From Pyropia yezoensis (Eukaryota > Rhodophyta > Bangiophyceae > Bangiales > Bangiaceae), in the NCBI GenBank assembly GCA_009829735.1, contig CM020620.1, positions 10,284,920 through 10,348,919 on the forward strand: a DNA stretch of 64,000 bases, given 5' to 3'. Below, piece by piece: positions 1-44,828 of the stretch. The notes under the pieces are model-generated. The model made no database searches and was not told the DNA's origin. It saw only the letters and a program-made list of their open reading frames with translations. A program made the translations under genes and the position numbers. The first letter of the stretch is position 1; every line of letters begins with the position of its first letter.

Positions 1-857
1 GGGGGGGCAGTGCATACGACTGCACCAGCCCGTTGGCGCGCCTGTCGCTAGACCGGGGGACGCTCGGGGGTGGAGTATTGTCAGTCGCTGGACCTCGCTT
101 TTTGCAGCGGAACTGTGCGCGCGGTATGGCCGTCGCTAGTGACGCTGCTGCCGCTGACAATTGCCCGCCCACTGGCACGGCGGGGTCGGCGTAGCAGGCT
201 GGCTGGTTGCTGAATATTTTGCCGCCGTCGCCGTCTCATCGTCTGTGCGTCTGCGGCGTCTCGTACGCGTCTGAATGCGGGGGCAAGGGGGACACACTCT
301 GTCTTCGCCCGCGTGTGATGCGGGGGAGTAGCTTGGGGCTGGATGGGTTCTTTATCGCCTGCATTTTATTGCGAGGGCGGAGGAGGGGGGGGGGGCGGCG
401 TGGCTTTGATGCGGTGCTGTGGGCGGTCAGCTTGTGTGTTGAGTGGCCACAATCTGCGACGCTGACCCGGCGGATGTGGCGGGAGGCTCACACGCGGGCC
501 GAGATGCATCTCTGACGATGACAGCCGCACGCCCTGCGTGGCGCATGTGGCGCGGCTCCTTTTTTCATACCAGTTTTTCCCCTGCCCGGGACGCTGTTCG
601 TGCCCACACGACTTGACGGGGGCCACCACGCTTGCTGGACCATCGACGGGTGTTTTGACGACCAGGAGGGGCGTGTGCGACACTCCCTGCGGTTGAGCAG
701 AGGGCGTTCACTGTGTGTGCCTGTGCCACCCTGGCGCGCTCGTGGTGGTCGTGTTGCGCAGGGGTGTTGTGGCGGACGGCGTTGGCGACGCTGTGACGGT
801 GGCCACTCTTTCTAGGTTGCTTGTTGGTACCGTTTCTGCTGGGCTGGCGCCGGCGCC
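1..857. other. Upstream region without a convincing gene
   Basis: Short overlapping open frames occur on both strands, but none shows a recognisable domain, a targeting leader or a plausible splice pattern. The composition is less extreme than in the low-complexity parts of the window, with G/T-rich stretches. It probably contains the promoter and 5' leader of the gene that starts at 858. Confidence 0.4.
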
Positions 858-3800
858 ATGTCCATCAACCGGTATGACCTCAAAGAGGCGGTTCTGCTGG
901 CACGCGGCGAGCGAGACGCCGAGCTGCTGAGGCTGACTACTCTGCGGGAGCTGCCCAAGTCACTCTTCTTTTCAAAGCCCGCCGCGTCTGCGCTCCCCGC
1001 CGCGCACCGGGGAGGTTGGACGGGAAAGCCGGTTATCTATTCCCATGGAGAGGTGTACAAGATGGTTGAGTCGGTAGCTGCCACGATGCGGGAAAGCGGC
1101 GTCCGTCCCGCAACGGTCTGTGCGCTGGTGGCACCGTCAGGCAGCTTGGAGGCGGCTGTCTTTTTCTTAGCGCTCGTGTGGATTGGCGCCGTCGCCGCGC
1201 CTGTTGACGCGGGGCTGGACAGCGAGGGCCTGGCCGTGGCGCTCCATGCGTGTGCAGCGACGATTGTCGTCTCCCCTATCCCCGACGAGGGGGCAGACGG
1301 GGACTTGGAGGAACGCGTCGGGGGGGAGGCGCTGGAGATCGGTGCCCGTGTAGCGAGCGTGGCCAAGAAGATGGGCATCATCTCGTGGCATCTGTTCCGC
1401 ACGACGAACGAGGGGGTGAAGCTGGAGATGCATGGCGCGCGGGCAGGTGCGAGCGCGGCTTGGAAGGGCGGCTCGGCCGACTATAAGGTGGACCCGGAGG
1501 AGGTGGCAGTCCACCTGCTCGCATCCCCCCCGACGCTGGACCCTGCAGGTGGGGACCTTGGCAACGCCCACGTGGTGGACGTGGTGCGTTTGACGCATCG
1601 CAACTTGGTGTCTTCGGCCAAGATGTTCGCCACCAGCTACAAGCTCAAGGTGGAGCAAACGACGCTCCTCACTTGTGCGCTGCATGACGCGCATGGACTG
1701 GTTGTTCTACTTGCGACCCTGCTGTCTGGTGGGCAGCTGGTTCTCCCACCCGCGACGGCCGCGCCTGAGGAGTTCTTTACCGCGGACATGTTTTGGCCGC
1801 TGGTGTCGTCCTGTGAGCTCGACTGGCTGTCGGCGTCACCAGCCAACCTGCGCATCGTATCGACGGGTGATTCCTTCCCGGACAAGTCGAGCATCACATT
1901 TGTGCGCGTCGCGACAGGCCTCCACACAATGTCTGAGGGGAGTGCCTCTGCCGACGATGCCCTCTCCCTTGAAGAAGTGGAGTTTCTGGCGGACAAAGTG
2001 TTCCACGTGCCAGTACTTCCTGCGTATGGTCCTGCCGCGGCCGCGGGTCACGCGGCTGCCAACACCACGGACGCTAGCGGAGAGAGCCCCGGTACGCTGG
2101 GCAAGCCTGTTCCCAACGGCGTGCGTCTTGCCATTCTCGACCCGGTCACGCGTGCTTACCTGCCAAAAGGGGAGGTCGGAGACGTGGCTGTATCTGGCGA
2201 CGGCGCGTCGTCGGCGGTCCTCGCTGGTGCAGGCCGGGACGAGGAGGCGGTGCGCAAGCTCTTCCTTCATGAAGTCTTGGATGACGTCGACGACCAGGAT
2301 GGCTTCCAGGCCGGTGTTATGCCGACGACGGGACCGGTGGCTGGTAAGTACTCGACCATGGCGGCTGCGCCTGTCCCCATGTCCCAAAGCGCCCGTGCGG
2401 CGGACAAGGGGATTCACGACTGGGACTCGGACACTGTCGCGTCAGGTGGAGTGTACCGAAACCTACCCCCGCTCAGCGCTCGCGCGTCGGCGACGGCGGC
2501 CGCAGCGGTTGCGGCAGCGCAGGCAGCGGCCCGGCCGGCGACGGTGTGGTTCATGACGGGTGATCGCGGCAATCTGGACGAGGATGGTTTCCTGGTGGTG
2601 GTTGGCGACGCCCGTGAAATGCGGGCGGCAGAGGCACGGAAGCTGGCGCTTGCTGCAGCAGCGGAGCAGCGGCGCAAGGAAGAGGAGGATACAGCCGACG
2701 AAGCCAAGCGCCGGGCGGAGGAAGAAAAGGCTGAAGCGGAGGCCGAGCGTCGCCGGGCTGCTGGCCTTGAGCAGGTGGATGATGAGGCTGATGCTGCTCG
2801 CAAAGCAGACGAGGCCAAGCTCGCTGCCGCCGCGGCGCTTGCAGCGGCCGGTGGCGCCGCCGCCACCCGCGGCAGCTGGATGCGACGTCAGTCGAACGAG
2901 GCTGACTCCTCTGTCACTCGTGCGGATAGCAACAACGGCTGCGCCATGCGCTCGTTTGGCAGCCTCGGCACTGCCGAAGACGGGCGTATGAAGCTGGACG
3001 GCTCGTCAGCTCAGGCCATCCTGGCGCACCTCGACAAGCTGGCAGCCGGTCAGGAGACGCTTGAGGCAGAGCTGACGGTCGCGCACAAGGCGCGGATGGA
3101 CATGATGCAGCAGCGCCTCCAGGCAGCGGAGGCCCTCGCGGTGAATCGCCGCCAGGAGATGCGACTTGATGCTAACGCTGCGGCCGCGCGGGATGCAGCG
3201 GTGGCAAACTCTGCGGCCGCTGCCGCGGCAGACCCCGCGGTGATGGAGGTGTCGGTGGACGAGGCCCAGGCGGCCATCATGTGTGCGGCAGCAGCTTCAG
3301 AAGAGTCGGCGCAGGCCACCGCCGCGGCCGCGGCAGCCGCGCAGGCCGCGGCCGCCGCGGCAGCCGCGGCGGAGCGTGCGTCCGAGGTCACGGCGGCTGA
3401 GGTGCGGAAGCTGCCTCCCCCTCCGTCGGCGGCGGAGAAGGCCATGAAGTTGGCTGTGGCGGCCGCGGCGTCGGAGCGGGCGATCGCTGCGAGCAAGGCC
3501 GCCGCCGAGCGTGCGGCGGCGGCGGCGCTGCTGGATGTGGTGGACCCCAACAACGTGACCAAGGTCGTGGCGGTTAGCCTTGACGATGTGGAGGCGGCAG
3601 TCGAGGGCCACCCCGCCGTGGCCAGTGCGCGTGCATTTGGGCGGCCAGACCCGCGGTTTGGGTCGGAAATCTATTGTGCGGTGGTGGTCAAGGGCGGCGG
3701 GCGGCTCTCTGAGCCGTGGCTCCTCCTTCACGTACAGTCGCTGCTGCCTGCAGCTGCTGTCCCCCGCCGCTTTTACGTGGTTGATGAGGCCACCATTGCG

Positions 3801-3932
3801 GCCGACCGCAGCACACTAGCGGCTGACAACAAACTCCGGCCTCTCTCGGGGGTGAGCGGCTACGCGGGCGCCGCGGTCGTGCGGCCGCCAACGTGGGTGC
3901 CCAAGAGCCGTCGTGTGCAGGCATCAGTCTAA
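858..3932 (+). CDS. Acyl-CoA synthetase-like (AMP-binding fold) protein with large coiled insertion, probable pseudoenzyme
   Basis: A single open frame of 1024 residues. Residues about 55-580 follow the adenylate-forming fold of the AAE3/Pcs60 (oxalyl-CoA synthetase-like) group: LTHRNLVSS at about 241, the PVPNGVRLAILDP segment, and a TGDRGNLDEDG hinge-proximal motif at about 566. Residues about 893-1000 match the small C-terminal lid (VEGHPAVASARAFGRPD). Between the two halves sits an insertion of about 300 residues, Ala/Glu/Arg-rich and coiled-coil-like. Catalytic motifs are degraded. The Thr/Ser/Gly-rich ATP loop that should precede LTHRN reads ASPPTLDPAGGDLG, YGxTE reads YGPAA, and the lid loop after GD is replaced by the insertion. 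NKLRP near the end may preserve the last lysine. The start ATG at 858 gives a full N-terminal subdomain. A regulatory or scaffold role is inferred; residual activity cannot be excluded. Confidence 0.8.
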   Translation: MSINRYDLKEAVLLARGERDAELLRLTTLRELPKSLFFSKPAASALPAAHRGGWTGKPVIYSHGEVYKMVESVAATMRESGVRPATVCALVAPSGSLEAAVFFLALVWIGAVAAPVDAGLDSEGLAVALHACAATIVVSPIPDEGADGDLEERVGGEALEIGARVASVAKKMGIISWHLFRTTNEGVKLEMHGARAGASAAWKGGSADYKVDPEEVAVHLLASPPTLDPAGGDLGNAHVVDVVRLTHRNLVSSAKMFATSYKLKVEQTTLLTCALHDAHGLVVLLATLLSGGQLVLPPATAAPEEFFTADMFWPLVSSCELDWLSASPANLRIVSTGDSFPDKSSITFVRVATGLHTMSEGSASADDALSLEEVEFLADKVFHVPVLPAYGPAAAAGHAAANTTDASGESPGTLGKPVPNGVRLAILDPVTRAYLPKGEVGDVAVSGDGASSAVLAGAGRDEEAVRKLFLHEVLDDVDDQDGFQAGVMPTTGPVAGKYSTMAAAPVPMSQSARAADKGIHDWDSDTVASGGVYRNLPPLSARASATAAAAVAAAQAAARPATVWFMTGDRGNLDEDGFLVVVGDAREMRAAEARKLALAAAAEQRRKEEEDTADEAKRRAEEEKAEAEAERRRAAGLEQVDDEADAARKADEAKLAAAAALAAAGGAAATRGSWMRRQSNEADSSVTRADSNNGCAMRSFGSLGTAEDGRMKLDGSSAQAILAHLDKLAAGQETLEAELTVAHKARMDMMQQRLQAAEALAVNRRQEMRLDANAAAARDAAVANSAAAAAADPAVMEVSVDEAQAAIMCAAAASEESAQATAAAAAAAQAAAAAAAAAERASEVTAAEVRKLPPPPSAAEKAMKLAVAAAASERAIAASKAAAERAAAAALLDVVDPNNVTKVVAVSLDDVEAAVEGHPAVASARAFGRPDPRFGSEIYCAVVVKGGGRLSEPWLLLHVQSLLPAAAVPRRFYVVDEATIAADRSTLAADNKLRPLSGVSGYAGAAVVRPPTWVPKSRRVQASV

Positions 3933-6653: not shown

Positions 6654-7056
6654 GGCACATGGCGCGGGGCGGGCGTGACCTTCCGCACCATACAGTGGGT
6701 TTGGGGGAGATGGCGAAGGAGACGCGCGTGGAGGGGAAGGTTAAGATGGGCTGCGGGTCCCGCCCGTCGCCACAGGGTCAGGTCTGCACCCACGGCAGAG
6801 CCGCCCCGCCCGCCTGGCGGACACAGCGATGATCCTCTTCCCACAAACACGCTGCAGCACAGCCACGCGTGATGTTCTGTCAGTCGCTGCCCTCCCAATT
6901 GACAGCCTCCAAGAGTTGGACTGTCGACCGAATCAATGCTGTACAGTACACTGACGTTGACTAGGCAGACTTGCGAACTGAACAAGTACTCTGAAATTTG
7001 ATATCCCTACATTAGAGACTTTCAGCACGTAGGATCCGGGTATGTTATGGGGTCCC

Positions 7057-7152
7057 CTCAAAAGCGGGCTTTCGATGGGAGTCTCGATGGGCTGGAATGC
7101 CCCATCGAAAGCGCTCGATGGGTCTCGAGGGGCTTAGATGGGCTACGTGTAA
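7057..7152 (+). repeat. Solo copy of the TCGATGGG repeat family
   Basis: About 95 bases with several TCGATGGG or TCGAGGGG motifs in both orientations. It follows the same order as the right subterminal region of the transposon at 19997-20126: AAAGCG, CTTTCGATGGGA, then GCTGGAA, then CCCATCGAA, then CTCGATGGG. It lacks the terminal AGCGGGAGCTGACG sequence. It is probably a fragment or a non-autonomous relative of the element at 9086-20126. Confidence 0.65.
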
Positions 7153-8900: not shown

Positions 8901-9057
8901 CACGTGGGTGGCCGCCCGCCCGCTCGCCCACTCGCCCGCCCGCCCGCCCACTCGCCCGCCCACTCGCCCACTCGCCCGCCCTCCCACCCGACACCACGCA
9001 CTCCCAGCCATCCATTTTTTTTAAAGGCCACCCAGTCCGCACGCAGTGCAAAGGCAT
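8901..9057 (+). repeat. Dispersed repeat, left copy (CACGTGGGTG...GCAGTGC)
   Basis: It starts CACGTGGGTG, passes through an irregular CGCCC/ACTCGCCC array and CCAGCCATCCATTTTT, and ends near GGCCACCCAG, GCAGTGC and GGCATTGC. A second copy in the same orientation lies at 20190-20308. The two flank the transposon outside its ends, and this copy almost abuts the left terminus. Confidence 0.7.
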
Positions 9058-9085
9058 TGCAGCCACCCACTTTGCCTTCGCGCAT

Positions 9086-9253
9086 CATCGTCAGCTCCCG
9101 CTGAAAGCCCGCCGAGTCCGCGCATTCGATGGAAACTCGACGGGACTCGACGGGGCTTCAGTGGCCGCCGAAGCCCCTTTTCGATGGGCCTTCGAGGGAA
9201 ACTCGATGGGGACGCGCTCGATGGGCCTCGATGGAGATTCCCATCGGGCGCGC
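9086..9253 (+). repeat. Left terminal inverted repeat and subterminal repeats
   Basis: The outer 25 bases pair with 20102-20126 at 24 of 25 positions. The following 140 bases contain a cluster of TCGATGG, TCGACGGG and CCCATCG motifs in both orientations, similar to but not identical with the right end. This arrangement is like the subterminal binding sites of En/Spm elements, where an element-encoded protein binds. Confidence 0.8.
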
Positions 9254-10039
9254 GTCCTTTACAGTCTCGCATGCACAGTCTCGGACTATGATATTTCTCA
9301 GCTCTCTCACGAGGTCTTCGTGTGGGACCACAACCTATACCAGTGTTCCCACTTTCGCTTCCCTTTCGTCCCCCCCCTGCCCTGGTACTCCTGCTCACTG
9401 TGGCAGCCACTAGTGCTGTTGGTAGGACCCTGGATACCGCGCAACGAAGAAGGACACACTGTTGACGCTGTGGTGGTACCAAAGCGGTCCTGGCCATCTT
9501 CAAATCATCTCTGGGAGCAACGAATAACTCACACGCAGACGTACAAACTGTGCTCATACAGACAGCGCTGGCTCGCCAGCGTCTACTCGGCTGTCTACCA
9601 CTACATAGAAAAGGCGCTCAAGCAAGCCAAGGGCGTCTGCTTAAGAGTCTCGCCTATCCCCCCCCCACCCCTCCCCTCGCCCACCGGTTCCTCCTTCCCA
9701 TGCAAACAACAAGCTGCCGGCGGCTAGGTCAGCGGCCAGTTCCAGTCTTCATGCCACCCCCCCCCTCCCCCCGCCCCCCTCCCGCCGGCTACACCTCCTC
9801 ACGCTTTCCGCCTGCCCGCACTTTGCTATCACACTCTCAGCAGCCAGTCCCGGCCTACGAGCAAGGCCGCCAAGACGACACAGTTCCACAATCCCACAGC
9901 CGACAGCGGCGAGCCCGCCAGCACGAGCAGCAGCAAGCTGTCCCGGGCATATCCTCGAACCCACCCGGGTGAGTCCAACGAGGTTATTGGTTGCACTCCG
10001 CCACACTCCGCCACACCCTCCTCACGTCGGCAAAGCACG

Positions 10040-11737
10040 TCACAGAGGCACCTCCTCGAGGTACTCAGCAAACCCGCCCGGATATGCGGCGCTCTCCGGG
10101 AGAACTCCAGGCGGAGCGGGACCCAGCTCGCCACCGTCAACGCCAACCACGGCGTCGGCACCCCCCGCAGCGTCAACGCCATCCGCAGCGTCAATGCCAG
10201 CACCACCGCTCACGATCCCTGCAGATTCACCAACAGCCCCACTGGCCACGTCCCCGACAGCACCAAGGCCGGCCCCATCGTTGGAGCCATCCACGACGAC
10301 ACGAGTACCCCCCTCATGGGCAGCGCCCTCCCCGCCCTCAGCACCATCCGCGACGGCGACACCCTCCCCTCCATCAACGCCATCCCAGACACCGACTCCC
10401 TCCTCTCTCGCAACTCCCTCCTCTTGCTCGACGCCCTCCCCATCGCCAAGGCCCTCCCCGTCATCATAATCTTCCCCGTCATCATAACCCTCCCCACCGT
10501 CTACGCCCTCCCCACCGTCCGCACCGCCGTCCCCTGACGCATACCCAGGCAGCAGCGTCGCACTACTATCCCACTCCGGATCGGCAGAGCCATTCGACCC
10601 CGCAGAGCCATCCGACCCCGCAGAGCCACTCGACCCAGCAGGACGAGCCGGACGCTCTTGGAGCTCATCGCCCGACGCGTCAATGACAAAGGTCCCGTCG
10701 TCGGCAACTTGCATGGCGCGTCGTTTGTCCTTTCCATCACACAGCCGGAGACCGGCCTTGACGTTCTGGTGCTTGCGGAGGAACTTGCTGACATGACGCA
10801 CCTCCTCCCGCCACCCATCGTATGCACCGTCATCGTTGCCACTTCGGCGCAACTTACGGACCCCAGCCACCTTCTCAAACATGCCTCGTGCCCAGTGGGC
10901 GATAAGCCCGACGTGTCCTGTGCTTGCGTCAACGTACTCGGCGTCGCCCACGTCCTTAGGCTCAAGGACACGCGAATGGTGGCCATTTCGCTTGAACATC
11001 GCTTTCAGCGCGGCGTTGATGGCGGCGTCCGCCGTTTGAGAGTTCGCGTACTTGCCCTTCTGCAGCCACTTGGCCGCAACCTCGGGGGTCATCAGCTCCA
11101 CGTTCTCGCCCAAGCTGCTGAAGTACGCCTGCATTGCCACCTTCCCCAGAGCCTCGTTCACGTGGCTGGTGATGCGGAGGAGCTTCTCACTGACGCGAAC
11201 GCGCTTCTCCGTTGGGGTGCCGGCTGTCGTCAAGAAGACGCGGAAGCTCGCAAGGTACGCCTCCGAGTCGTCGCGGGTGCCACCTCGGACGCTCTCGCAA
11301 GCCTCGCACAACATACCCAGGAAGCGCGCCCGGTTGGGCATCGCCTTGTAGCTTTCGGTGGACCCCAACATCTCGTTGATCAGCGCCTTCTTGGCCACGT
11401 CGCGCACATCACCGAGCTCCTGTTCATTGATGGTTGCCAGCTCCAGCTGGGCCTCACAGTCGTCCAGCATCGCGGTGCTCCCACGAATTTTGACCGCCCC
11501 AACCGGCTCCGTCTTGACTCTGGCGACCACCCCGTCGTACACGCCCTTGACGGCGCCCTGCAGTTGCACCACAGCTTGGGCGGTGCGCTCGTTCCTCACG
11601 CCCTGGTTGTGCAAGCTCGTTGAAAGGCGGTTGACGGAGGTGTGGACCTCATCGAGCTTCTTGCTCAGCCCCGCCAAGTGGGCACACACTGGGCGAAGGC
11701 CCTCTGCAAACACCCTGGTCATTGCGACCACGGTCAC
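10040..11737 (-). CDS. Transposon accessory protein, C-terminal part (acidic repeat tail)
   Basis: About 565 residues, not recognised by family. The N-terminal part contains a likely coiled coil (LSKKLDEVHTSVNRLS, then AVVQLQGAVKGVYDGVV). Residues about 90-340 look like a helical folded region (for example AKKALINEMLG and DAAINAALKAMFKR). Residues about 290-340 read GVRKLRRSG then GAYDGWREEV then GLRLCDG, loosely like the pre-catalytic stretch of the transposase encoded on the other strand. The last 200 residues are acidic and Gly-rich with DGGEGV-type hexapeptide repeats (18-nt units, about 10310-10520). The nominal start is GTG, and the frame is open further upstream. It overlaps the 325-residue frame at 11734-12711 in another phase. 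The two may be exons of one gene or two genes. Confidence 0.55.
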   Translation of the reverse strand: MTVVAMTRVFAEGLRPVCAHLAGLSKKLDEVHTSVNRLSTSLHNQGVRNERTAQAVVQLQGAVKGVYDGVVARVKTEPVGAVKIRGSTAMLDDCEAQLELATINEQELGDVRDVAKKALINEMLGSTESYKAMPNRARFLGMLCEACESVRGGTRDDSEAYLASFRVFLTTAGTPTEKRVRVSEKLLRITSHVNEALGKVAMQAYFSSLGENVELMTPEVAAKWLQKGKYANSQTADAAINAALKAMFKRNGHHSRVLEPKDVGDAEYVDASTGHVGLIAHWARGMFEKVAGVRKLRRSGNDDGAYDGWREEVRHVSKFLRKHQNVKAGLRLCDGKDKRRAMQVADDGTFVIDASGDELQERPARPAGSSGSAGSDGSAGSNGSADPEWDSSATLLPGYASGDGGADGGEGVDGGEGYDDGEDYDDGEGLGDGEGVEQEEGVAREEGVGVWDGVDGGEGVAVADGAEGGEGAAHEGGTRVVVDGSNDGAGLGAVGDVASGAVGESAGIVSGGAGIDAADGVDAAGGADAVVGVDGGELGPAPPGVLPESAAYPGGFAEYLEEVPL

Positions 11738-12711
11738 GTGCGAAGAAGCAGGCGGCTCGCCGACCTGGTGAACTGGAGGAGGAACAGCAAGCGCGTAGCT
11801 CCATTCTGCGACGCTGCCGTTGGCGGCCCGTCAGACACCCGAACAGGCCCGCCAGCAGGACCATCGGCCAGCTGCTGAGTCACCGTCTTCTTGGATGCGC
11901 GCTTGACGCGCGGCTTGACCTGCTTTCGAACGCCCTTGGTTGATTTGGACGGGGACTTCGTAGCCGCTCGCGTACGCGACCGCTCTCTAGCGAGACCGGC
12001 GTTGTTGGCAGCAGCCCCCCTCTGCACCACCCGATAATAGAGACCTCTGGGTGGAACAACCACAGGAGCCTGACGCGTCTGCAGGGGCGCCTTGAACAAG
12101 GAAGGCCTACGCACGCCGGACGACGATGGCGGTGCATGCAGGCCCGCCGACCCCGGCGACGCAGCTCGTGAAACGGCGGGCTGGCTTGGCGTGCTGGCCC
12201 GTGAGCCACCCCCCCCGACAGGCACCATCGGCGTGGTTGTGGCACGTGCGCCCCGGCGCGCGGCTTCTGCGATGGAGACCGGAGAAGCGCCATCCTCCTC
12301 ATGAGCCGTCCCGCCTGCAGCTGTCGCATCAGCGCCACCTTTCAGAGTCGTGGACGCCCCCAGCGCGCGCTTCCCCGACTGCATCGCCGAGGTGCGCCGC
12401 GGGGGCGTCGACGCAGCAGCAACGAGCGTCGCAGGTCGCCGGGGGGGCAAGGCCATCCCGCGCACCTCCGCAGCCCGGAGAGGACGGGCTGCAAGCGGTG
12501 GTCGGGCCGAACTGGCCGCCGGGGACAGCACTGGAGGCTCGAGAACGGACGACTCGTCCGAGGCGAAGCCAGGAGTGACCCAGTGCAGTTGCGCCTGACC
12601 CGTCGGCATCTCCGCCAGAACAGCGGCTGCTGCCGCATGGCCATCACTTGCGGCCGTCGGCTGCGTCGAAGGAAGGTTGGCAAATAGCTGAGGAATGCGC
12701 CGAGGAGGCAT
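11734..12711 (-). CDS. Transposon accessory protein, N-terminal part (basic, Pro/Ala-rich)
   Basis: ATG at 12711 opens 325 codons (MPPRRIPQLFANLPS...). The protein is Ala/Pro/Ser/Arg-rich and mostly unstructured, and ends in a basic patch (KSPSKSTKGVRKQVKPRVKR) that looks like a nuclear localisation and DNA-contact segment. The downstream frame (10040-11737) is open in another phase for about 95 bases before this one stops. An intron in the overlap, translational frameshifting or a short sequence error would all explain the layout. The gene is divergent from the transposase and shares the 12.7-14.6 kb promoter region. A TNPA-like regulatory role is inferred from position only. Confidence 0.5.
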   Translation of the reverse strand: MPPRRIPQLFANLPSTQPTAASDGHAAAAAVLAEMPTGQAQLHWVTPGFASDESSVLEPPVLSPAASSARPPLAARPLRAAEVRGMALPPRRPATLVAAASTPPRRTSAMQSGKRALGASTTLKGGADATAAGGTAHEEDGASPVSIAEAARRGARATTTPMVPVGGGGSRASTPSQPAVSRAASPGSAGLHAPPSSSGVRRPSLFKAPLQTRQAPVVVPPRGLYYRVVQRGAAANNAGLARERSRTRAATKSPSKSTKGVRKQVKPRVKRASKKTVTQQLADGPAGGPVRVSDGPPTAASQNGATRLLFLLQFTRSASRLLLRT

Positions 12712-13781
12712 AGTGGTGGGAGTGTGGGGAACGAACGGGTCAGGTCACAGTGAACACAGGAGGGAGGTAAGGGAGAAACAACAAGGGGCGCCACCACAAA
12801 GCGCAGGCTCAAACGCGTCGTCAGAGACACCGCATTAAAACCGCCCTCATCGCTCACTGGGCCATGCCCTGCCACGCTTTTGTACCAAAGAGCACACTCA
12901 AGGGTCCACATGACAAGACGCAAGAGCGAGCGCCGGATGCAGTTGCGACCGCACAGGGGAGCCTAACCGGCAGGAAGTTACCTTCGCGCGGGCGCGGCGC
13001 CAGGCAGGACAAAGAATCTTTGTCCACGGGCAGCAGGCCTCAGCACCGCTGAATACCGTCCTCTCATCAGGACGGAGAAGCAACCCCTCGCCCTCACTAG
13101 CTGCGGCACACATCTGTGGAAGCGCGACCGAAGACGCTGCGCCGCTCGTGGGCTGGCCTCAGGCGCCGGCTACCCCTCTCCCCGCCGTCCACGAGCCGAC
13201 GTACCGTCGTCGGTTCCGATCCATGACCAGAAAGTACGTGGGGACGAGCGCAGTCCGACATTGGCAGCGGGTGCCGTACCAGGAAGAGACGCGGACCACA
13301 GGCGCTGCGCAGGCGTTCAGGCGATGGTGTGCGAAGCGCAGGAGCCAAAGCAGCGGCGAAACGCTCTCGTTGGGGACCCACAGAGGGAGGCAGATTGCGT
13401 GGCGTGTCGGAAGCTGTTGGCGCCGAGGCCAGAAAAAAAAGTACCACTTGGAGCAGTCAAGTATTGGCAATGCCGCACATCTATTGGTCGACGCATCCCA
13501 TAACTCTGTCATTTACACTCACTTGCTCTCGAAGACAGCAAGTTGCGCTGGCGGAGCTTGAAATCTTGCGCTGACGACGGCCTTCTCGGGGCTCGATGGG
13601 CCTCGATGGGCCTCGATGGGCCTCGGTGGTACCTGTCGACGTCGGCCACAGACCTGCCACAGCAGCCTGCAACAGCCTGCCAACACGCCTGCCAACAGCA
13701 GGAGGCATGGCCACACTCTCTGTACGTTGCGTGACTTTCTTGGATCTCCTTTGAGGGTCCTATGCGGAGGCGGTGGGGGGG

Positions 13782-13814
<33 letters not shown>

Positions 13815-14600
13815 AGGCAGCGGGTGGTGGAAAGGGCTCCAGCCCGCCCTGCCTTCCAAGGGAAATGGCGCGCGGCCGCCACACACAGTGTCGCCGAGGC
13901 GCGGCTACCACACGCGGTGTCGCCGGGGCTCTGATTGCGCTTTGGACGGTGCAGACGGGTGCCTGACGTGTGAAGCTGAGTGACTTTGCGTGAGAGCGGT
14001 ACCGTGTGGTCGCTTGCGTCACCCTGCCTCAATGCGTGACCGACTGTTCTTGAGGCACAGGTCATTTTCGCTGAGCCGCGCTGGCGTACGACCGTAAGTC
14101 CTGTAGGCGCCACGCAGCTACCCTCCATTCTCTCGACCAGGCGCGCCGCTCTGCTGCCCTCCACACTTTCCACCTGGCGCGCCGCTCTTCTCTCCGCCGA
14201 CGCCGACGTGTGAGCCGCCTGCCTCTGCCCGCCAACGCGCAGCATCTTGGCCGTGCAGCCGTTCTCTTTCCTCCTTGTCTGGGCCGACGTGCCGCCCCCG
14301 CAACGCCAGAGACCTATGTGCTGCTCTCTTCCGCGTCGAAGCGGACGTCCCACCCTCCTCACTTTTCGTCTGCACTGCCGATGGGGTGGCCGCCTGTTAC
14401 GCCTATGGTATGTGTATCTCCACAGGCGTTTTATGGGCGTCAATGTGTGCGCGGGATCGAGAACAATGCGTTGCCGTCGTGGACCTAGCGCCGCGGGTTC
14501 CTTTGCTGTGAACAGGTCATTGACGCTGACATTGGACCGCTTCACGGTGTGCTGCCGCTCGTTGGTTCGGTCTCTGTCACTGCTACTGCCGTTGACAGAT
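12712..14600. other. Central divergent promoter region of the transposon
   Basis: It lies between the - strand accessory gene (ATG at 12711) and the transposase ATG at 14601. It carries a run of 31 G (13783-13813) and a tandem TCGATGGG cluster at 13591-13629. A few open frames of 60-160 codons occur without recognisable content. One + strand frame is open upstream of the transposase ATG, so a longer N-terminus is possible. Confidence 0.6.
13591..13629 (+). promoter_or_regulatory. Internal tandem TCGATGGG cluster
   Basis: Three exact tandem copies of a decamer containing TCGATGGG occupy about 13591-13620, with a fourth diverged copy (CTCGGTGG) after them. The same motif dominates both subterminal regions of the element, so this is a candidate binding site by which an element-encoded protein could control the divergent genes on either side. 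Confidence 0.6.
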
Positions 14601-17600
14601 ATGTCTGGTGGGAAGAAGCGGGCCAGGCTGCTCGTCTGCTCTGTCTGTGCCATCACGACACACAGCAAAGGCGGCTTTGTATGGCACCAGAGGTCGGCTC
14701 ATGGGAGAGAAGAGGGAAACGGCATACCCAGCAGGAAGAGGGGGAGGTCGCCACTACTGGGGGATCCTGATGGCGCCTTTGAGACGGCCGGCGCTCCCTT
14801 GCGTCCCAGGGCACGAAGGCACATGGACCTCCTGATGGGCGCCGGCAGCCCCACGGTGGAGCAGCTGGTCTCGGGAGCCGACAGCACCCCGGATCCAGAC
14901 GACAAGCTGATGGCAGATGAGGCGACTGTGGGTCTGGGTGCTCTCGTAGCCGACAGTACCGGCAGCCATGACGCCGCCATCCGTGCGAAGCTGTATCCTC
15001 TGCTAGAGATGACTGGGGTGTTGCGGGAAGGCGCTGCTGACTACGCTATGGATGCTGAGTACGCCTACCAGTCCTTGGCGACGCGTGTCCTCAGTCTTTA
15101 TGAGGTGCTCGATGACGCCGCGCGGTCCGTCCCCATTTTGCAGCGACGCAAGAACAGCCGACCAGGGAGGTTCAACACCCTCCGTCTTCGGGCACTGCAG
15201 CAGTTTGTTCTCGGTGTGGGCGGGGCGGGATTGTCATTGAGAGAGCAGAAGCAGCTGTACGACTTCTTGGAGGTTTGGGACCGTCGGGACGCAGTGGACC
15301 GGATGGAGGTACGTGACCACCTCTCTCTGAGTGCCGTGTTTCCTACGGCTTCTACATTTACGAAAGCGCTCCGCGACGACATCAGCGACGCTGTGCTAGG
15401 CGCGGGCTGGAAGAAACTGAAGACCCGTGAGGGCGGTGCCGTCTACGAGGGGTACTACCGGTCTGTCTTGGAGGTGGTAATGGCTCACCTGCGCAAGGGC
15501 GCAGCTGGTGTACGGTTGTGGAGCGGGGACGGTGCCCCTGCCCCTCCCACCAATCTACGACAGTCTGCCATGGACGGTGACGCGTTCCGCCTCTGTGAGA
15601 AAGAGGTTGTCGGCACTCACGGCGGCTCCAGTTTTGTGCTAGGGCTGAATCTCTATAGTGACAGCAGCCAGCTTTCGTGGTCTGGAGGTACGTTGCCGCT
15701 TTCGTTCATCATGCGAGGGCACGTGTTGACTGCCGTTCAGCTGCCTTCAATGTTTTGTGAGGGTGCGCTCGTCCTCAGTCCCACGTGCAGTAACTGAAGT
15801 CACGTCTGTTTTCTTGTCTTGCCTTGTACACTGACCTCACTGCCTTTCTCTTGCTCACCGCTGGCGCACCTCCTCAGCCCACAAACTGTACCCGGTTCGA
15901 GCTCGTCTTGTCAACGACATGACTGGTGATATCGATTGGATGACCGTCGCGTACATCCCTATTGTGCGGACCCTAGTTGAGACGGCGGCGAAGGAACGCT
16001 CCCGACTGCGCCGCTGTGGAGTCCTTCAGCGCGTCCTGTACGTGTGCATGCGTGCGGCCATGGCAGCGAGCAGATTTGGTGTGGAGGTCTGCGTGGGCGG
16101 CCGGCAGCTGATAGCCTTTCCTCGTGTGTTGCTTTATGTATGCGATCAACCGGAAGAGCGTGCTGTGTTGTGCCTCAAGGCGGGCCAGTGCCAGCGCCCG
16201 TGCTCCCAGTGTGACGTACTGGTGGGTGTCGCTGGGTCATCCGAGGCGCTGAGCGCTGCCGAACGCGACGTTGTGGAGACGCTTGAGCGCCAGCTGGAGG
16301 TTGATGGCCTCCGTCAGAGCAGTAGGCATCGTGCGAGACAGGAGACGCTTGAGGCCTCCGACAGCTTGACTGGCTTTGTGCCGGCGTTGGCTGCAATGGA
16401 AGGTCTTTCCACATCTCCCTACTTGCTGTACAAGATGATTGGCTTCGATGCCTTGCACGTACGTTGGCTTGCCTTTGGTGTGCGTGTGCAACGGGGTGTC
16501 GTGCATTCGCCTCCATTGACAATCTTTGGTGGAGCCCCGAGTCTGACAGTGTGCGACTTTTTGTGACCCTCTGCTTCGGGTTGCTTCGGATTTTGACGCA
16601 GGTGCTGGACCTGGGCGTGACCAGGCTGCTCGTGCAGTGCCTCGTCGAGGTGTTCCCCAAGATTTGCGACGGTGACACGCCCCTCTTAGGGACGGACGCC
16701 GCGTCGCACCGCATTTGCAACGAGCGTCTGCAGCACCTCGGGCGCCGCAGTAAAGCTTGCAAAACACCGCCAGGGTACGTTCTTGTGAAGGTCGTGCGAG
16801 GAGTGGTGGGCATGAGCATCCTCTTCGCCCCCTCTATCTGCAAATTGTGGCCTATGTGTGGACTGTGAGCGGTTGCGGATGGCGCCACGTGGTGCCGCCG
16901 TTGTCCCGCTCATGTGTGGCTTACGTCTGCTCTTGGTGTTTTGCTCGGCGTGTTTTCCTTCCGCACTGTCCTGCATCTCCTACGTCAACGTGAACGCATG
17001 CATGACTCTCTGAAGGTACTTGGTCAAGCACGACGAGCCGCAGTCGGTTTTCACGGGGAAGCATCAGCGGGAGGGTGTGTCGACCATGGCCTACTTGGTG
17101 GCCGGGGTCTGGCGTACACGCGGGGCTCTGCCGGTCCCCGCACCTACTGGCTCTGGAGCGGACGCATCTCTACCCGTCGGCGACGGCGTCCATGACGCTG
17201 TGCCTGACCTAGCCGCACGTGTCGCGGCTCTGGGTCTGCATGATCCTGAGGATGACGGTGAGGAGAGCAACGTTCCGGCCGGTCAGGCTGGCACAGCCCA
17301 ATATGACTGGCCTGCCTATCACGCTGTGTGGAAGGAGACGCCGATCGACGAGGCCATCACGGCCATGTTCGCGGAGGTCGCGGTGTTGCACGCGGAGATG
17401 TCCGGGTACACATGCTCCACCGCCCCCTTGCCCCTCACCCTTGACGTCGGCAAGTGCATCGCGGACCGGGCGGAGCGCTTTGTGACCATGTACCTGACAC
17501 CTATCCTAGGCGTTCAGCACTCCACAAAGGTGCACAAGCTGCTATGCCACGTCATGGAGGCCATACGCATGCATGGAAACATCAACAATGGGAATGCGGG

Positions 17601-18519
17601 TATTAACGAGCGTCTCCACAAGGACGACAAGCCCTACTACGCGCGCACTAACAAGGCGATATCGGACTTCACCCGCCAGCTTGTTGTGCAGGCGCAGGGC
17701 GCCCGTATCATCCTGCGGCGCAATGCTGAAGAGGACGAGTGCCTCCTCGCTGGTCTGGAGGAACTTGCCGGGGATGAGGACACTGACAGTGACGGGGCGG
17801 GCATCCTTCACGACGAGGACCTACCTGATGACGCGCTCGGTGGAGGTGGGACGGATGGTGCGACCGACGTGGCTCCCGGTGATCAACCTCGTGCGCGAGG
17901 GCCGCCTGGTTGTGGTGTCGAGAACGCAGCTTTGCGGACACCTGTGTATCACCTGCGTCGATTGCGTTTGTCAACCATGGCCCAGTGGCCAGGGTTGGCG
18001 GGTGTTGCGGCAGCCCTCGAGCTGCCTGTGGACGCGCGGGTGCGTATCAGCACTCGCGTCCAGTTCGAGGCTGTGTTTGAGTGCGGCTCGACGCTCACGC
18101 AGCTGCTGTACGCGTCCCCTTCTTTCCGTGGTGATCCATGGTACGACTTTGTCCTGTACTCCTCGGCTGATGACACCTCGACACTGTCGGTGGCCGAGGT
18201 TCGTGCAATCGTCCGGCAGCCTGACGGTGACGTCGCAGTTGTGGCAGACATGGCGGTCGTCCCAGGCGTAGCCAACTGCCCCTTGGTCTCCCGCGGGTGC
18301 ACGCGGCTGGCCTGGAGCGTACACGACGGCGAGACGGACGTTGTCTTGAGAATATTGCCCTTGCCTGCTATTCGACGAGTGCTTCACGTGGTCCCAGACT
18401 TTGCAGACCTGGCCAGTCGCCGTGGCTTTGATGCAAAGCCTGCGCAGTGGGGTGACCCTGTGGAAGATCGTCTCGCTATGCGCTTCTTCATCAACGCATT
18501 TTATCCATGGGGGTCGTGA
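14601..18519 (+). CDS. Plavaka/CACTA-like DDE transposase, four exons
   Basis: Cut-and-paste transposase. Proposed exons are 14601-15687, 15878-16458, 16602-16774 and 17016-18519. All introns are GT-AG, three donors read GTACGT or GTACGTT, and the join is 3345 nt, giving 1114 residues. A C2H2-type zinc finger lies at C13, C16, H29 and H34 (LVCSVCAITTHS, then WHQRSAH). The catalytic core resembles Plavaka transposases: D354 in LYSDSSQLSWSG followed across the first intron by HKLYPVRARLVNDMTG; D553 in FDALHVLDLGVTRLL, read across the second intron; and E812 in INERLHKDDKPYYARTNK after STKVHKLLCHVMEAIR. Every splice restores family-like sequence, which supports the model. No break was seen. The C-terminal 300 residues are acidic and then folded, and I cannot assign them. 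The start at 14601 precedes the zinc finger closely; an upstream start is possible. Confidence 0.85.
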
Positions 18520-18777
18520 TCTTTGCGGTGTGTCATTGACTGCTGTTTATGTCTTCGTCTTGCGCATTGACGCCTTGTCCAAAAAACTAGAACTAGAGTT
18601 ATGGGGGCAGAGGTGGTTGCGGACAATACGGCGGGGCTAACGAACAACATCTCAACGACAGCACTAAAGGTCATACCCAGCATGCGCCCGTCCACATGAA
18701 GACAGAAAATCGCCGTCCGTTGCACTCGGCAAGCAAGGTCGGCCCGTCCCTGGCGCGCGACGCATAGACACGCGCAC

Positions 18778-19990
18778 TCACGCCCTCCAGCATGTAGCCC
18801 TCGGTTGCTGCACACAGTACATGGGAAATGTCGCGGTACCGACCGGTGTAGGTGCTGCCGTCGCCACAGCGGCCGCCGCCGCGAGGTCGGCGGACGCCGG
18901 CACAGCCGCGGCGGCCGACACCGCCACGGCAGCGGCGATTGTATCGGCGACGGTGGCGGGCCCCGGCGGGGGGGGCGGCAGCAGCAGCTTGCGCTCGTGC
19001 CACAAAGGCGGGGACGGAGCCGCCGTCGCCGCCGCAGCCGCCAGGTCGGCCGACGCCGCCGCAGCCGCAGCTCCCGACACCGTCACGGCAGAGGCGATTG
19101 TATCGGCGACGGTGGCGGGCCCCGGCGGGGGGGGCGGCAGCAGCAGCTTGCGCTCGTGCCACAAAGGCGGGGACGGAGCCGCCGTCGCCGCCGCAGCCGC
19201 CAGGTCGGCCGACGCCGCCGCAGCCGCAGCTCCCGACACCGTCACGGCAGAGGCGATTGTATCGGCGATGGTGGCGGGCCCCGGCGGGGGGGGCGGCTGC
19301 AGCAGCTTGTGCTCGTGCCACACATGCGGGGACGGATCCGCCGTCTCCGCCGCAGCCGCCAGGTCGGCGGACGCCGCTACAGCCGCAGCGGCCGACACCG
19401 CCACGGCAGCGGCGATTGAGTCGGCGACGGTGGCGGGCCCCGGCGGGGAAGGCGGCTGGAGCAGCTTGTGCTCTTGCCACACTGGCGGGGACGGAGCCGC
19501 CGTCGCCGCCGCAGGCGCCAGGTCGGCGGACGCCGCCACAGCCGCAGCTCCCGACACCGCCACGGCAGACGCGATTGTGTCGGCGACGGTGGCGGGCCCC
19601 GGCGGGGGGGGCGGGCATTGGGGCGTCCGAAGCGACAGTGGCTGGGGACGTGGAAGCCGGGGCGGGGACATTGGATCCGTGGAGACGGTTGCGACCGCGG
19701 TCGTGGAGCGGTTGTCGGCGAGGTGGGACGGGGGGCTGCGCATTTTTCGGGAGGCGGCTGCCTTCACCTGGGCGGGGAAAGGCGCGTCCGACCACTGTGC
19801 CTGCTTCCCCGCGAGCTTGCTGCGACGCCACGCTGAAGTCGATCGGTCGACGGCCCGCTTCTGACAGCTGGTGCCGATCCAATGAGAGGGGCCACAGTTG
19901 GTGCAGTCTCGCAGTTGTGGAGGTGTCCTGAGACAGTGTTCACAAACGCGAGAGAAAGCCCATCGAACATTCAGAGCGCTGTTGGGCGGC
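18778..19990 (-). CDS. Transposon accessory protein with zinc-binding motif and 53-residue repeats
   Basis: The most protein-like frame on the - strand begins near the right subterminal region with CEHC, then CTNCGPSHWIGTSC, a Cys/His cluster resembling a zinc knuckle (CX2CX3HX5C). A basic segment (KRAVDRSTSAWRRSKL) follows, then about 4.8 copies of a 53-residue Ala/Pro repeat (PPPPPGPATVADTIASAV, ending near WHERKLLL). The DNA repeat unit is 159 bp, a multiple of three, so the other frames are also open across it. I prefer this frame because of the zinc motif. No ATG lies close upstream in frame, so a short 5' exon or intron is likely (a CTCAG acceptor precedes GACACC). It converges on the transposase gene. 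Function unknown; a DNA-binding regulator is inferred. Confidence 0.45.
18850..19612 (-). repeat. 159-bp coding minisatellite, about 4.8 copies
   Basis: The marker TCGGCGA(C/T)GGTGGCGGGCC recurs at 18944, 19103, 19262, 19421 and 19580, exactly 159 bases apart each time. The second and third units are almost identical, while the outer units are more diverged, which suggests recent local duplication in the middle. The unit length keeps all frames open. Confidence 0.9.
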
Positions 19991-19996
19991 GCCCCG

Positions 19997-20126
19997 TCAA
20001 GGGTCCCGTCGAAAGCGCGCTTTCGATGGGACTCTGGACGTGCTGGAAACGCCCATCGAAGGCGGCTCTCGATGGGTCGATGGGACTCGACGGGCTTCGA
20101 TGGGCTTTTAGCGGGAGCTGACGATG
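19997..20126 (-). repeat. Right terminal inverted repeat and subterminal repeats
   Basis: It ends GGGCTTTTAGCGGGAGCTGACGATG-type sequence, the inverted partner of the left end. Inside lie TCGATGGG motifs at about 20033, 20069, 20077 and 20097, plus CCCATCGAA in the opposite sense. It overlaps the likely 5' region of the - strand accessory gene. Confidence 0.8.
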
Positions 20127-20129
20127 CAT

Positions 20130-21419
20130 GAGAATCCTGCAAAGGTCTGGCAGACTTGGTGAGGGGTGCCCACGCCCCCCCCCCTCCCCCACGTGGGTGA
20201 CCACCCGCCCACTGGCCCACTCGCCCGCCCTCCCACCCGACCCCACCCACACCCAGCCATCCATTTTTGCAGGCCACCCAGCCCGCATGCAGTGCGCAGG
20301 CAATGTCTGCCTTCGTGCGGCGACCGCGGAGGTCGGTGATCTCGGTGAATGCATGCGCCGGTCCGTATTTACCATTGGCGTTGCACAAGCACACGAGGGC
20401 CCGCACCGCCAGCGGCTTCGCGGCTAGGCCAACAGGCACCAATGGTGCCTCGCCAGGATGAAGGGCGAAAAAGCCAAGGCCAGCGCATATCGAGTCATTT
20501 GCAGCGGCAGGTTCCTCCGCGTGCTGCTGCCCTCACTGCCTGCGGATTGGATGGTGCCAATTTGGGCTCAACCTTCTTGTTGCGCGAGACCCCGCCTCGG
20601 TATGTATGGCGAGTGCGGTCCTCCGTTCGGCGTTGACAGTGGTTTGTGCGCTATTCCCGCACCGCTTGCCTGCACCCGCGGGGGTGGGGTGCCGACAGCC
20701 ACGGGGGCCCGATGGCACCGGCACGGCTGTGACGCCATACCGAGCGCTGTCATCCACTTTGTTGGCCTGTTTGCGGGCCCAATGGCGCGCCCCGGTCACC
20801 GAGCCCCACCCACATGCGCGCGGCAGAGAGCCCACGAGGTGTGCGGCTTGGCCCTGCGGCCTCAAGAGGCCGCGGACCTCGGCATGCGCATGCAGGGGAC
20901 TGCTGGGGAGATGACAGCAGGTGTTGCCACGGTCGGCCGCGGCAGACGGCCGAGTCCCCCCTTCCCGCTGCCCTCTCTCTCGGTCGACCCCGAGAGGGGA
21001 GGCGCGTGGATGCTATGAGACTGTGGTCTTGCGCGGTGGCATTTCCACAATGGGCTAGATACCCCCACCCTCAGGCTGCGACAGCCGAGGGCGCGCGCAG
21101 GTAGTTTCACTCGCCCGAGCCACTCGTGGGCGCTGCGGCTTGTGGCTGTCACTGTAGCTGTCTTTGGCACCCGCAGTATTTGTTCCCCCACCGCACGCCG
21201 CGCTGCGCAGTGTGGTCCCTTTGTCTCAACCCATCCTTTAGCCCCGTGTCTGCCCGCCTCTTCCCAGCCCCTCATAACCGCATCATCTCGTCTTGCCGCG
21301 CTCCACTCCATCTCCTTATCACCAGCACATCTAGGTGCGACTGGCCTCCATTGGCCAGCACCGCCACCCGCCCTTGCCTCCCCCTCCGTGCCCCGCCCCC
21401 CTCCCCTCTGCTGCCGACC
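20130..21419. other. Intergenic region right of the transposon
   Basis: Apart from the dispersed repeat at 20190-20308 there is no confident feature. Several open frames exist on both strands but share no recognisable motif. The last 200 bases are C/T-rich and may be the 5' leader of the ORF at 21420. Confidence 0.4.
20190..20308 (+). repeat. Dispersed repeat, right copy
   Basis: The same order of motifs as at 8901-9057 and the same orientation: CACGTGGGTG, an irregular CGCCC array, CCAGCCATCCATTTTT, GGCCACCCAG, GCATGCAGTGC and GGCAATG. It is shorter in the CGCCC array and diverged by several substitutions. It lies 60 bases outside the right end of the transposon. Confidence 0.7.
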
Positions 21420-41933: not shown

Positions 41934-43469
41934 TCATCGCTTGACCAGTTGGAGGACGTCCTCATCACAGAGCTGGTGGTCCTTGCCGACCTTTTGCGGG
42001 TTGAACTTGGTGGACCGCCCCCACACGAGCGCGTGCTTCAGGTCGTGGATGATGGCCTTGTGCAGCTTATTGCAAAACGCCTCGACGGTCGTGTGGCGCT
42101 TGTCGTTGCGCAAGATGACCGGCTGGTCAAAGTCTGGGAAGAGGCCCCGCGGCTTGGTGTACACGCGCAGCAGGTTGAGCTCGTCCCACATGGCCTCCAG
42201 CAGCCCGTCCAGGTTCCAGTCCAGGTTGGAGCTGATGGGCACGTAGTGCGGCAGACGGTCGTACAGCTCCAGCTCCTCCATGGAAATGGCGTCCACCTTG
42301 TTCACCACGTAGATGCACGGCAGGTAGACGCGGTTCCCCTCAATGACGTCAATGATCTCGTCAATGGTGCACTCTCGCCGCACATGGAACGCCGCGTTGT
42401 GGATGCGGTACTCGCTGCAAACGGCCTTCACCTGCTCCACGTCTAGTGCGGATTGGACTGACGCGGAAAAGGTGATGCCGCCCCGGTCCTTGCGCACAAA
42501 CGTCACGTCCGGGGGTCGCTTGTTGAGCCGAATGCCGAAGCCCTCCATCTCGTGCTCAATAAGGCGCTTGTGGACAGCCGGCTTGGCCGCGTCCAGGCAG
42601 AGGAGGATGAGGTTGCACGAACGTGCCACGGCAATGACCTGGCGGCCACGGCCCTTGCCGTCTTTGGCGCCCTCAATGATACCGGGGAGGTCGAGCAGCT
42701 GGATTTTCGCGCCCTTATAATGAATAACACCGGGGATGCACGTCAGGGTTGTAAACTCTGCAAGGGGCAACACCCCCCAGGCCAGATTTGCAAGACAACA
42801 GAACAAGCAAAAAAAAACAAAACGCGAGTGAGTCACGCAGCAGGAAACAGAGGGTGTGTGCGGAATGCGCAGCCGACACAAGAAAGGGAAATGAACGGAG
42901 CACCCACTGGCACAGACAGGGAGGCACACCCAACGGCTGCAGCAAGCGGCAGACGGGTACGCACCATAGGCTGCTACTTCGGACGTTGTGCCTGTTAACT
43001 TCGTCAACAACGTAGACTTCCCCACTGATGGGAAGCCAACGAGGCCGACCCGCGCGTCACCCGTCTTGGTGACCTCAAAGCCCTCCCCGCCACCACCCCC
43101 CGACTTCGGTGGGGCAATCAGCTCGCGGCGGAGTTTGGCAAGCTTCGCCTTGAGACCGCCCAGATGGTTCCTGCCGCGAGGATACACAGGCAAGCAGGAA
43201 ACACAAGACAAAATAGACAACGTCCGGTAGTGCGGCGAAGCAGGGAGAAAAGTCGTCACCTCTCTTAAGAAACCCACACAGAATGTCAGCTCGTCTGTAG
43301 GGTGTGGCACTCGACAGAAAAAAATAGCACCGCAGGCCCCACAAAAGATCAATAGATACAGGAGAAAAGCTTGCATCCCAGTCCTCCCAAGCACGTACGC
43401 GGTTGCCTTGTTTTTCTGCGTCTTCGCCATCTCCGCCTCAATCTCCTCAATCTTCTGAAGGATCGACAT
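41934..43469 (-). CDS. DRG1: GTPase DRG1, three exons
   Basis: Developmentally regulated GTP-binding protein of the OBG/HflX-related TRAFAC class, a ribosome-associated translation factor. Exons 43469-43399, 43170-42965 and 42757-41934 join to 1101 nt, 366 residues, one fewer than human DRG1. The joins recreate conserved sequence: NKATA before [17 protein letters not shown], and SEVAAY before [11 protein letters not shown]. Motifs are G1 [10 protein letters not shown]3 [21 protein letters not shown]4 NKVD and the C-terminal TGS domain ending [20 protein letters not shown]. Introns are 228 and 207 bases, GT-AG, with GTACGT and GTGCGT donors. An upstream in-frame extension exists, but the family start [14 protein letters not shown] is clear. 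Confidence 0.96.
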
Positions 43470-44828
43470 GGCGGCCGGCAGCCAGAGGCAGGCCCTGCGA
43501 CACAAAGATGGGGAGGTCGCGAAGCCAGGCACAGCCAGGCAGATAGGCCTGGTCTTTCGGTGGAACACGGGACGCAGCACAGCCGGTGAGCAAGGGCGTC
43601 TAGGGATGCTGATGGCGCAGCAGCGCGGGGCGGCGAGCCATCGCGATGACCTATGACGAACAAGTAGCACCGACCATGGAGAAGTCTACGGGTGCAATTG
43701 TAGGGGGAATACACAAATGACGAGGTATTCACCGGTGAACAAGAGGCTCTACCGTCAACCGAAATACTGCATGCAACAAAAGAGGGGTCTGACCGCAGTA
43801 AATACAACAGGCGGCATTATTTTTGGTCTGCGCGTCTCAGGTGGCTTCTGCCACTTCTTGGCCACACCAGACCCATGGCAGCGTGTTCACACTTTTCGCC
43901 TGTGCTGCCGCTCTGCCAAAGTAAGAAAGAGGCTCTCATCAGCAGCCAGTACTTATGCAGCCGCACCGCGCGAACCCCGTTGATGGACTGCATGGAGACG
44001 GAGGTTGTGGAAAGACCCACCGACACCGCGGTGAGCACAGCCAGTGTCATGCACCTACGTCCGTACGCGTAACAAGAAGCATGGAGCGGTACAACTCCTT
44101 GATGAGAGACACTACGCCTCTCATGATGGCACGGGCCAACTCGGGGGTACCACCACTTCAGGCGGGGGTGCGACATGTGGGCGCGCACGCGGAGAGTACA
44201 CTGAGTGCAGGAGTAGAGCCGACACCCATCGCAACAGCGCGGTTGGAGAGCGAAGCGCCAAACGCCCAGCGGCCGAGATGGCAGGCAACCGCTGCGGACA
44301 CACGCCCCCCGGCGCCACGCGCGTGTATCCTGCAAGCAGAGGCGACTCTCACAACAGAGCACAAAAGAACAGCGTGATGCAGCGCTACGGAAATGGGGGC
44401 AATGGAGCGCCCCCCACCGCCCACCCCGGAGAGTACTCGCTCATCAGCCGCGCCCGCCTCAGATGGGTAGGCGAAACCGGCCGCTGTGGCCTTCAGTGCC
44501 GACCGCCCTCCCACACAGCCGGGACCTCGCAGACAGTTACTTCCGAGGGTGGCGTACGTGTTGAGAGATGGTGTGCGAAGCAGTGTAGGGCGCAAGGGCG
44601 TACCTCGGATGCGCCCGCGCTTGTGGTTCATGAGTGATGCCGGTGCCGAAAGAATAAACAATCTGTACAAACCACTTGCCCACCCGCCCCACACAACGTC
44701 TCCGCTTGAATGGACCACGGCGCCCTCGCCGTCTCGCCATGTGCAAGATATCCCCCCCCCACACCACTGCATCCCCCAAAAATGTACTCTCTCTTGCCCA
44801 TTGTCGTCCATCATGAGCCCCCACACCT
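43470..44828. other. Intergenic region, no confident gene
   Basis: Upstream of DRG1 and downstream of the 2Fe-2S gene, both on the - strand. Frames of up to 240 codons are open, but they have no recognisable motif and an odd Cys/Arg-rich composition. Nothing else noted. Confidence 0.4.

Follow-up and report, generated by a model that had tools for sequence, protein, structure and literature searches.

A segment of about 11 kb in the genome of the red alga Pyropia yezoensis carries inverted ends with CAT on either side, and the question is what kind of transposon this is and where exactly it begins and ends. We examined it in the window, a 64,000-nucleotide stretch at C3:10284920-10348919, and searched the whole 107.5-Mb assembly (11 contigs) for its relatives. 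The element is a member of a large Plavaka-type transposon family in this genome, and we read it, with a probability of about 0.9, as a cut-and-paste DNA transposon of the Plavaka group belonging to a family that makes 2-bp duplications. Host genes in the window encode an AMP-binding enzyme (816-3932, + strand), a GTPase with a TGS domain (41934-43685, - strand) and a beta-ketoacyl synthase (46709-48238, + strand).

Ends, empty sites and the target duplication

The inverted ends described in the initial annotation, 9086-9110 and 20102-20126, do match at 24 of 25 bases, and CAT is present on both sides, at 9083-9085 and 20127-20129. The boundaries placed there, at 9086 and 20126, have to be moved, as the empty sites of related copies shift each of them 3 bp inward, giving the following features.

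9089..20123, + strand: transposon proper, 11,035 bp, CGTCAG...CTGACG (end comparison and empty sites of relatives)
9087..9088, no strand: left copy of the 2-bp target duplication, AT (homology to the empty sites of copies e, f and k; AT at 39/42 ends)
20124..20125, no strand: right copy of the 2-bp target duplication, AT (homology to the empty sites of relatives)
9089..9110, + strand: left terminal inverted repeat (21/22 against the right)
20102..20123, - strand: right terminal inverted repeat (matches the left 22 nt at 21/22)
9126..9234, + strand: left subterminal array, seven TCGAYGG motifs (motif count; conserved in aligned left ends)
13593..13619, + strand: three more TCGAYGG motifs, located between gene 2 and the transposase gene (motif count)
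19960..20103, no single strand: right subterminal array, eight TCGAYGG motifs on both strands (motif count; conserved in aligned right ends)

The left 22 nt match the right end at 21/22, and their next best place within the window at 16/22. The clusters of subterminal motifs noted at both ends are borne out, with 15 of the 19 TCGAYGG motifs of the element (both strands counted) lying within the outer 180/190 bp, a density of 40.5 per kb compared to 0.47 per kb elsewhere in the window. A segment outside the element, at 7050-7144, is 77% like the right subterminal region and has four of these motifs but no clear terminal repeat; it is probably a remnant of an older related element. The flanks at 8955-9059 and 20204-20305 share a direct repeat of ~105 bp (87%), which places the element between two diverged copies of a repeat of the host.

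Empty paralogous sites are available for three insertions of relatives, copies e, f and k, and in 18 of 18 a dinucleotide is present once that flanks the inserted copy at each end, AT for f and k and CT for e. All four empty sites of copy e read CTC-CT-GGC, the single one of copy f (81.5% identical) reads CTC-AT-G, and those of copy k read C-AT-GATCAC in each of the 13 that were read among more than 40 spanning places listed. The host sequence of copy k is a short dispersed repeat of ~120 bp that starts near ATTGTGCGTCCCGT and occurs in more than 40 places (L094-L103, L032, L038, L042). The single dinucleotide in every empty site makes the family element CGTCAG...CTGACG and its duplication 2 bp long; the CT found both at the ends of copy e and in its empty sites shows that the duplicated letters belong to the target. 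Two bp, as seen across these three insertions, lies within the 2 or 3 bp reported for Plavaka duplications in PMC12730594.

For the window copy W, and for copies a and b, a search for empty sites found none, so that the boundary of the window copy rests on homology; the empty-site comparison proposed in the initial annotation has been made with relatives, whose sites break 3 bp inside the claimed ends. The exon-4 proteins of e, f and k are 67-74% identical to that of the window copy. Three closer copies (L019, L020 and L021; ~95-98% identical in the parts compared) keep the terminal repeat and AT, followed on the right by G, C and A respectively, and support the AT-flanked boundary at 9089-20123. 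By homology to the relatives, the expected empty site of the window copy would be GCGCATC-AT-GCATGAG, and the CAT...CAT around it is most likely a chance feature of the target. The 2-bp model predicts an empty allele with a single AT between ...TTCGCGCATC and GCATGAGAATCC..., the 3-bp model a single CAT in place of CATCATGCAT, and an empty allele GCGCATCATGCATGAG at this locus would contradict the 3-bp reading.

Three other accounts of these ends were weighed. A CACTA-superfamily element reading CATCG...CGATG (9086-20126) with an exact 3-bp duplication, as initially proposed, would explain the CAT on both sides of the window copy, and two random 3-mers of the window are equal with a chance of 0.024. 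Among 14 pairs of facing ends listed, however, 12 were compared and just one, the window's own, has a 3-bp match immediately outside C...G, where 0.36 are expected with flanks swapped; copy l matches over 3 bp too, but at two other offsets. The empty sites moreover show 2 bp, the outermost C/G differs between close copies, and the transposase does not match Transposase_21, all of which make this account improbable. A second account, in which AT belongs to the element and nothing is duplicated, was first hinted at by a comparison of flanks, with AT at 39/42 ends and sequences beyond it that seldom match; it was dropped as highly implausible, since the empty sites show two letters inside the supposed ends to be duplicated, the dinucleotide occurring once in 18 of 18, and since CT flanks copy e on either side and stands in each of its four empty sites.

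We consider it equally implausible that the ends are independent short elements flanking unrelated genes by chance. Some family ends are unpaired, and there is a 1.9-kb end pair without a transposase (C2:25706961-25708854), but several pairs elsewhere, 9.3-11.7 kb apart, enclose the same transposase, five of them showed gene 2 or exon 4 in unchanged order when read or matched, and the whole stretch is absent from the empty sites of e, f and k.

The transposase and the proposed accessory genes

The coding features of the element are listed below.

14601..15687, + strand: transposase exon 1 (splice sites and joined frame)
15878..16458, + strand: transposase exon 2, with the Plavaka domain, CDQPE and CxxC (splice sites, Pfam, motifs)
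16602..16774, + strand: transposase exon 3 (splice sites and joined frame)
17016..18519, + strand: transposase exon 4, with the H(4)H and NE..HK motifs (splice sites, motifs)
10040..12744, - strand: gene 2 (accessory), in two frames, 11734-12744 and 10040-11830 (one frame in 4/4 relatives read)
18872..19614, no strand: 159-bp tandem array, 4.7 copies, initially taken for a third gene (repeat analysis, frame comparison)

The transposase gene is open, as had been proposed, its four exons joining to a protein of 1,114 aa with a terminal stop only. All 13 relatives aligned retain GT and AG at each of the three introns, and exons are more conserved than introns in comparison with copy b (78-87% versus 55-65% identical), whereas in the near copy L050 the two hardly differ. 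The spliced protein narrowly passes the Pfam cut-off for the Plavaka domain (PF18759), with 26.7 bits against 26.3; exon 2 alone scores 25.6, 24.4 or 26.3 bits depending on the stretch given, below or at the cut-off, and 13 of 13 exon-2 relatives match the Plavaka family (E up to 0.1). Transposase_21 (PF02992), the CACTA transposase family, is absent among the Pfam matches of the spliced protein up to E 1. Genome-wide there are 114 Plavaka-domain matches (101 over the cut-off) and 48 Transposase_21 matches (40 over the cut-off), with no place common to the two lists by eye.

The motifs CDQPE, CxxC, H(4)H and NE..HK hardly vary across 29-30 loci, with CSQC following CDQPE and HKLLCH preceding NE..HK, although the second C of CxxC has been lost from copy e (L056). 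They fit the pattern described for the clade in PMC12730594; the assignment of the catalytic D and E is putative. Neither exon 4 nor the exon-2 profile matches a solved structure up to E 1. Comparison with seven diverged copies gives dN/dS values of 0.15-0.24 for exon 4 and 0.06-0.10 for exon 2, which are rough because dS exceeds 1 in several comparisons, and shows the transposase to be under purifying selection. The signal comes from the diverged copies and does not extend to the youngest branch, the values against the nearest copy, L050, being 0.50 for exon 4 and 0.65 for exon 2. One stop interrupts exon 2 in copy b, and another interrupts exon 4 in L050.

Two extra genes had been proposed, and one of these, gene 2, is a conserved gene of the family, with dN/dS of 0.16-0.23 in its second part and 0.19-0.38 in its first. 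It forms a single frame in the four relatives read (b, d, i and j) and two frames in the window copy, which is thus frameshifted near 11790, possibly through an assembly error. The structural completeness initially claimed therefore holds for the ends and the transposase, which are whole, but not for gene 2. Gene 2 has no Pfam match up to E 1, and the AlphaFold model of its protein alone (mean pLDDT 37.5) was not used. The other proposed gene is mostly the 159-bp tandem array; relatives resemble its frames to much the same degree on either strand, except in the subterminal part, and it was rejected as a clearly conserved protein gene. Pfam gave no TET/JBP gene in the ORFs scanned.

We propose that a DDE-type transposase, perhaps with the gene 2 protein, would bind the subterminal TCGAYGG arrays, cut at the CGTCAG...CTGACG ends and join these to the strands of a target opened with a 2-bp stagger at AT, which would leave a copy of AT on both sides. 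As a guess, the motifs at 13593-13619 would suit control of gene 2 and the transposase by an end-binding protein.

Target preference, age and activity

A genome scan with the family end pattern, allowing 3 mismatches and including AT, found 42 ends and none with the reversed control. AT is present at 39 of the 42, a count favoured by its inclusion in the pattern; with AT omitted the scan yields 44 ends, and the AT tally covers only the 42. With two duplicate flanks removed, 31 of 40 ends have C outside the dinucleotide (p 7e-9, taking 0.325 as the assumed value), and 8 of 13 AT pairs read CATG, compared to 0.14 of the NATN sites in the window (p 1e-4). The family targets thus prefer C-AT-G. 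Among these 13 pairs are g and three long ones, c (20.1 kb), h (19.1 kb) and l (43.8 kb), which may be composite.

The 1.9-kb end pair (L081 201-2094) has flanks C-AT...AT-G, is too short for a transposase and is likely non-autonomous; L081-like sequence at C2:22.86, C1:19.89 and C1:30.91 Mb contains empty sites of copy e. Other ends are oddly ordered, being unpaired, inverted or doubled (C1:37135757 and 37159875; C3:20744185 and 20774844; C1:3252940, 3264122 and 3273542), and may be rearranged copies or assembly joins. Beyond the P. yezoensis genome, pattern searches gave 16 matches in other genome contigs and 18 in viral contigs, none of them confirmed as relatives.

The suggestion that the element is possibly recently active fits a sister group better than the window copy. 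Over 1,662 bp at the left end, copies j, k and a third at C1:37.1 Mb share 99.7-99.8% identity, and over the transposase stretch 97-98.5% (repeat-number differences included); because their left ends are nearly identical while their flanks differ, this group has probably moved recently. The window copy, ~2-5% diverged from its nearest copies, is probably older, and its recent movement seems less likely; if gene 2 is needed, this copy would not be self-sufficient.

Relationship to other Plavaka and CACTA elements

In PMC12730594, CACTA/EnSpm elements have CAC..GTG ends and 3-bp duplications, and they share with the red-algal family a broad clade (CMCT) and subterminal repeats; the red-algal family differs in its CGTC ends, its 2-bp duplication and its Pfam family. 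In CACTA/EnSpm elements an accessory protein binds the subterminal repeats; in the red-algal family such repeats are present. Of the CACTA/Plavaka-type label initially given, the algal Plavaka-like lineage and the subterminal repeats thus stand, but CACTA membership was rejected, with neither CAC(TA) ends, nor a 3-bp duplication, nor a Transposase_21 match. ESTA elements, described in the same paper as EnSpm-like with TA duplications and a separate transposase lineage, also have a fixed dinucleotide target and belong to the same clade, although it is TA rather than AT; this comparison is by description (PMC12730594).

Two fungal sublineages are closer comparisons. According to PMC12730594, PlavakaA has TGT..ACA ends and a 2-bp duplication, and so shares the duplication but not the ends of the red-algal family. 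PlavakaB has a Plavaka transposase, reported duplications of 2 or 3 bp and CATCA..TGATG ends that resemble CATCG...CGATG if the target letters are included, but the red-algal family reads C-AT-CGTCAG, its CAT/ATG being largely target by the empty sites and its duplication 2 bp, nearly always AT (PMC12730594). By these published descriptions, the red-algal ends fit neither PlavakaA nor PlavakaB and set the family apart from both. Our search found no publication on red-algal Plavaka elements; it covered neither most subscription papers nor Repbase, and an earlier record is possible.

We speculate, tentatively, that this is a red-algal Plavaka sublineage whose transposase picks C-AT-G and duplicates AT, so that the CAT/ATG mimicking the outermost inverted repeat is target, and that the same could hold for the CATCA..TGATG of fungal PlavakaB, whose boundaries would then need redrawing. 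For the family itself, a boundary misread by plain inspection is corrected and its duplication is settled by empty sites, while near-fixed insertion at AT is a feature of the enzyme that can be tested. The group, with its 114 Plavaka-domain matches, makes up a sizeable share of the mobile DNA of P. yezoensis.
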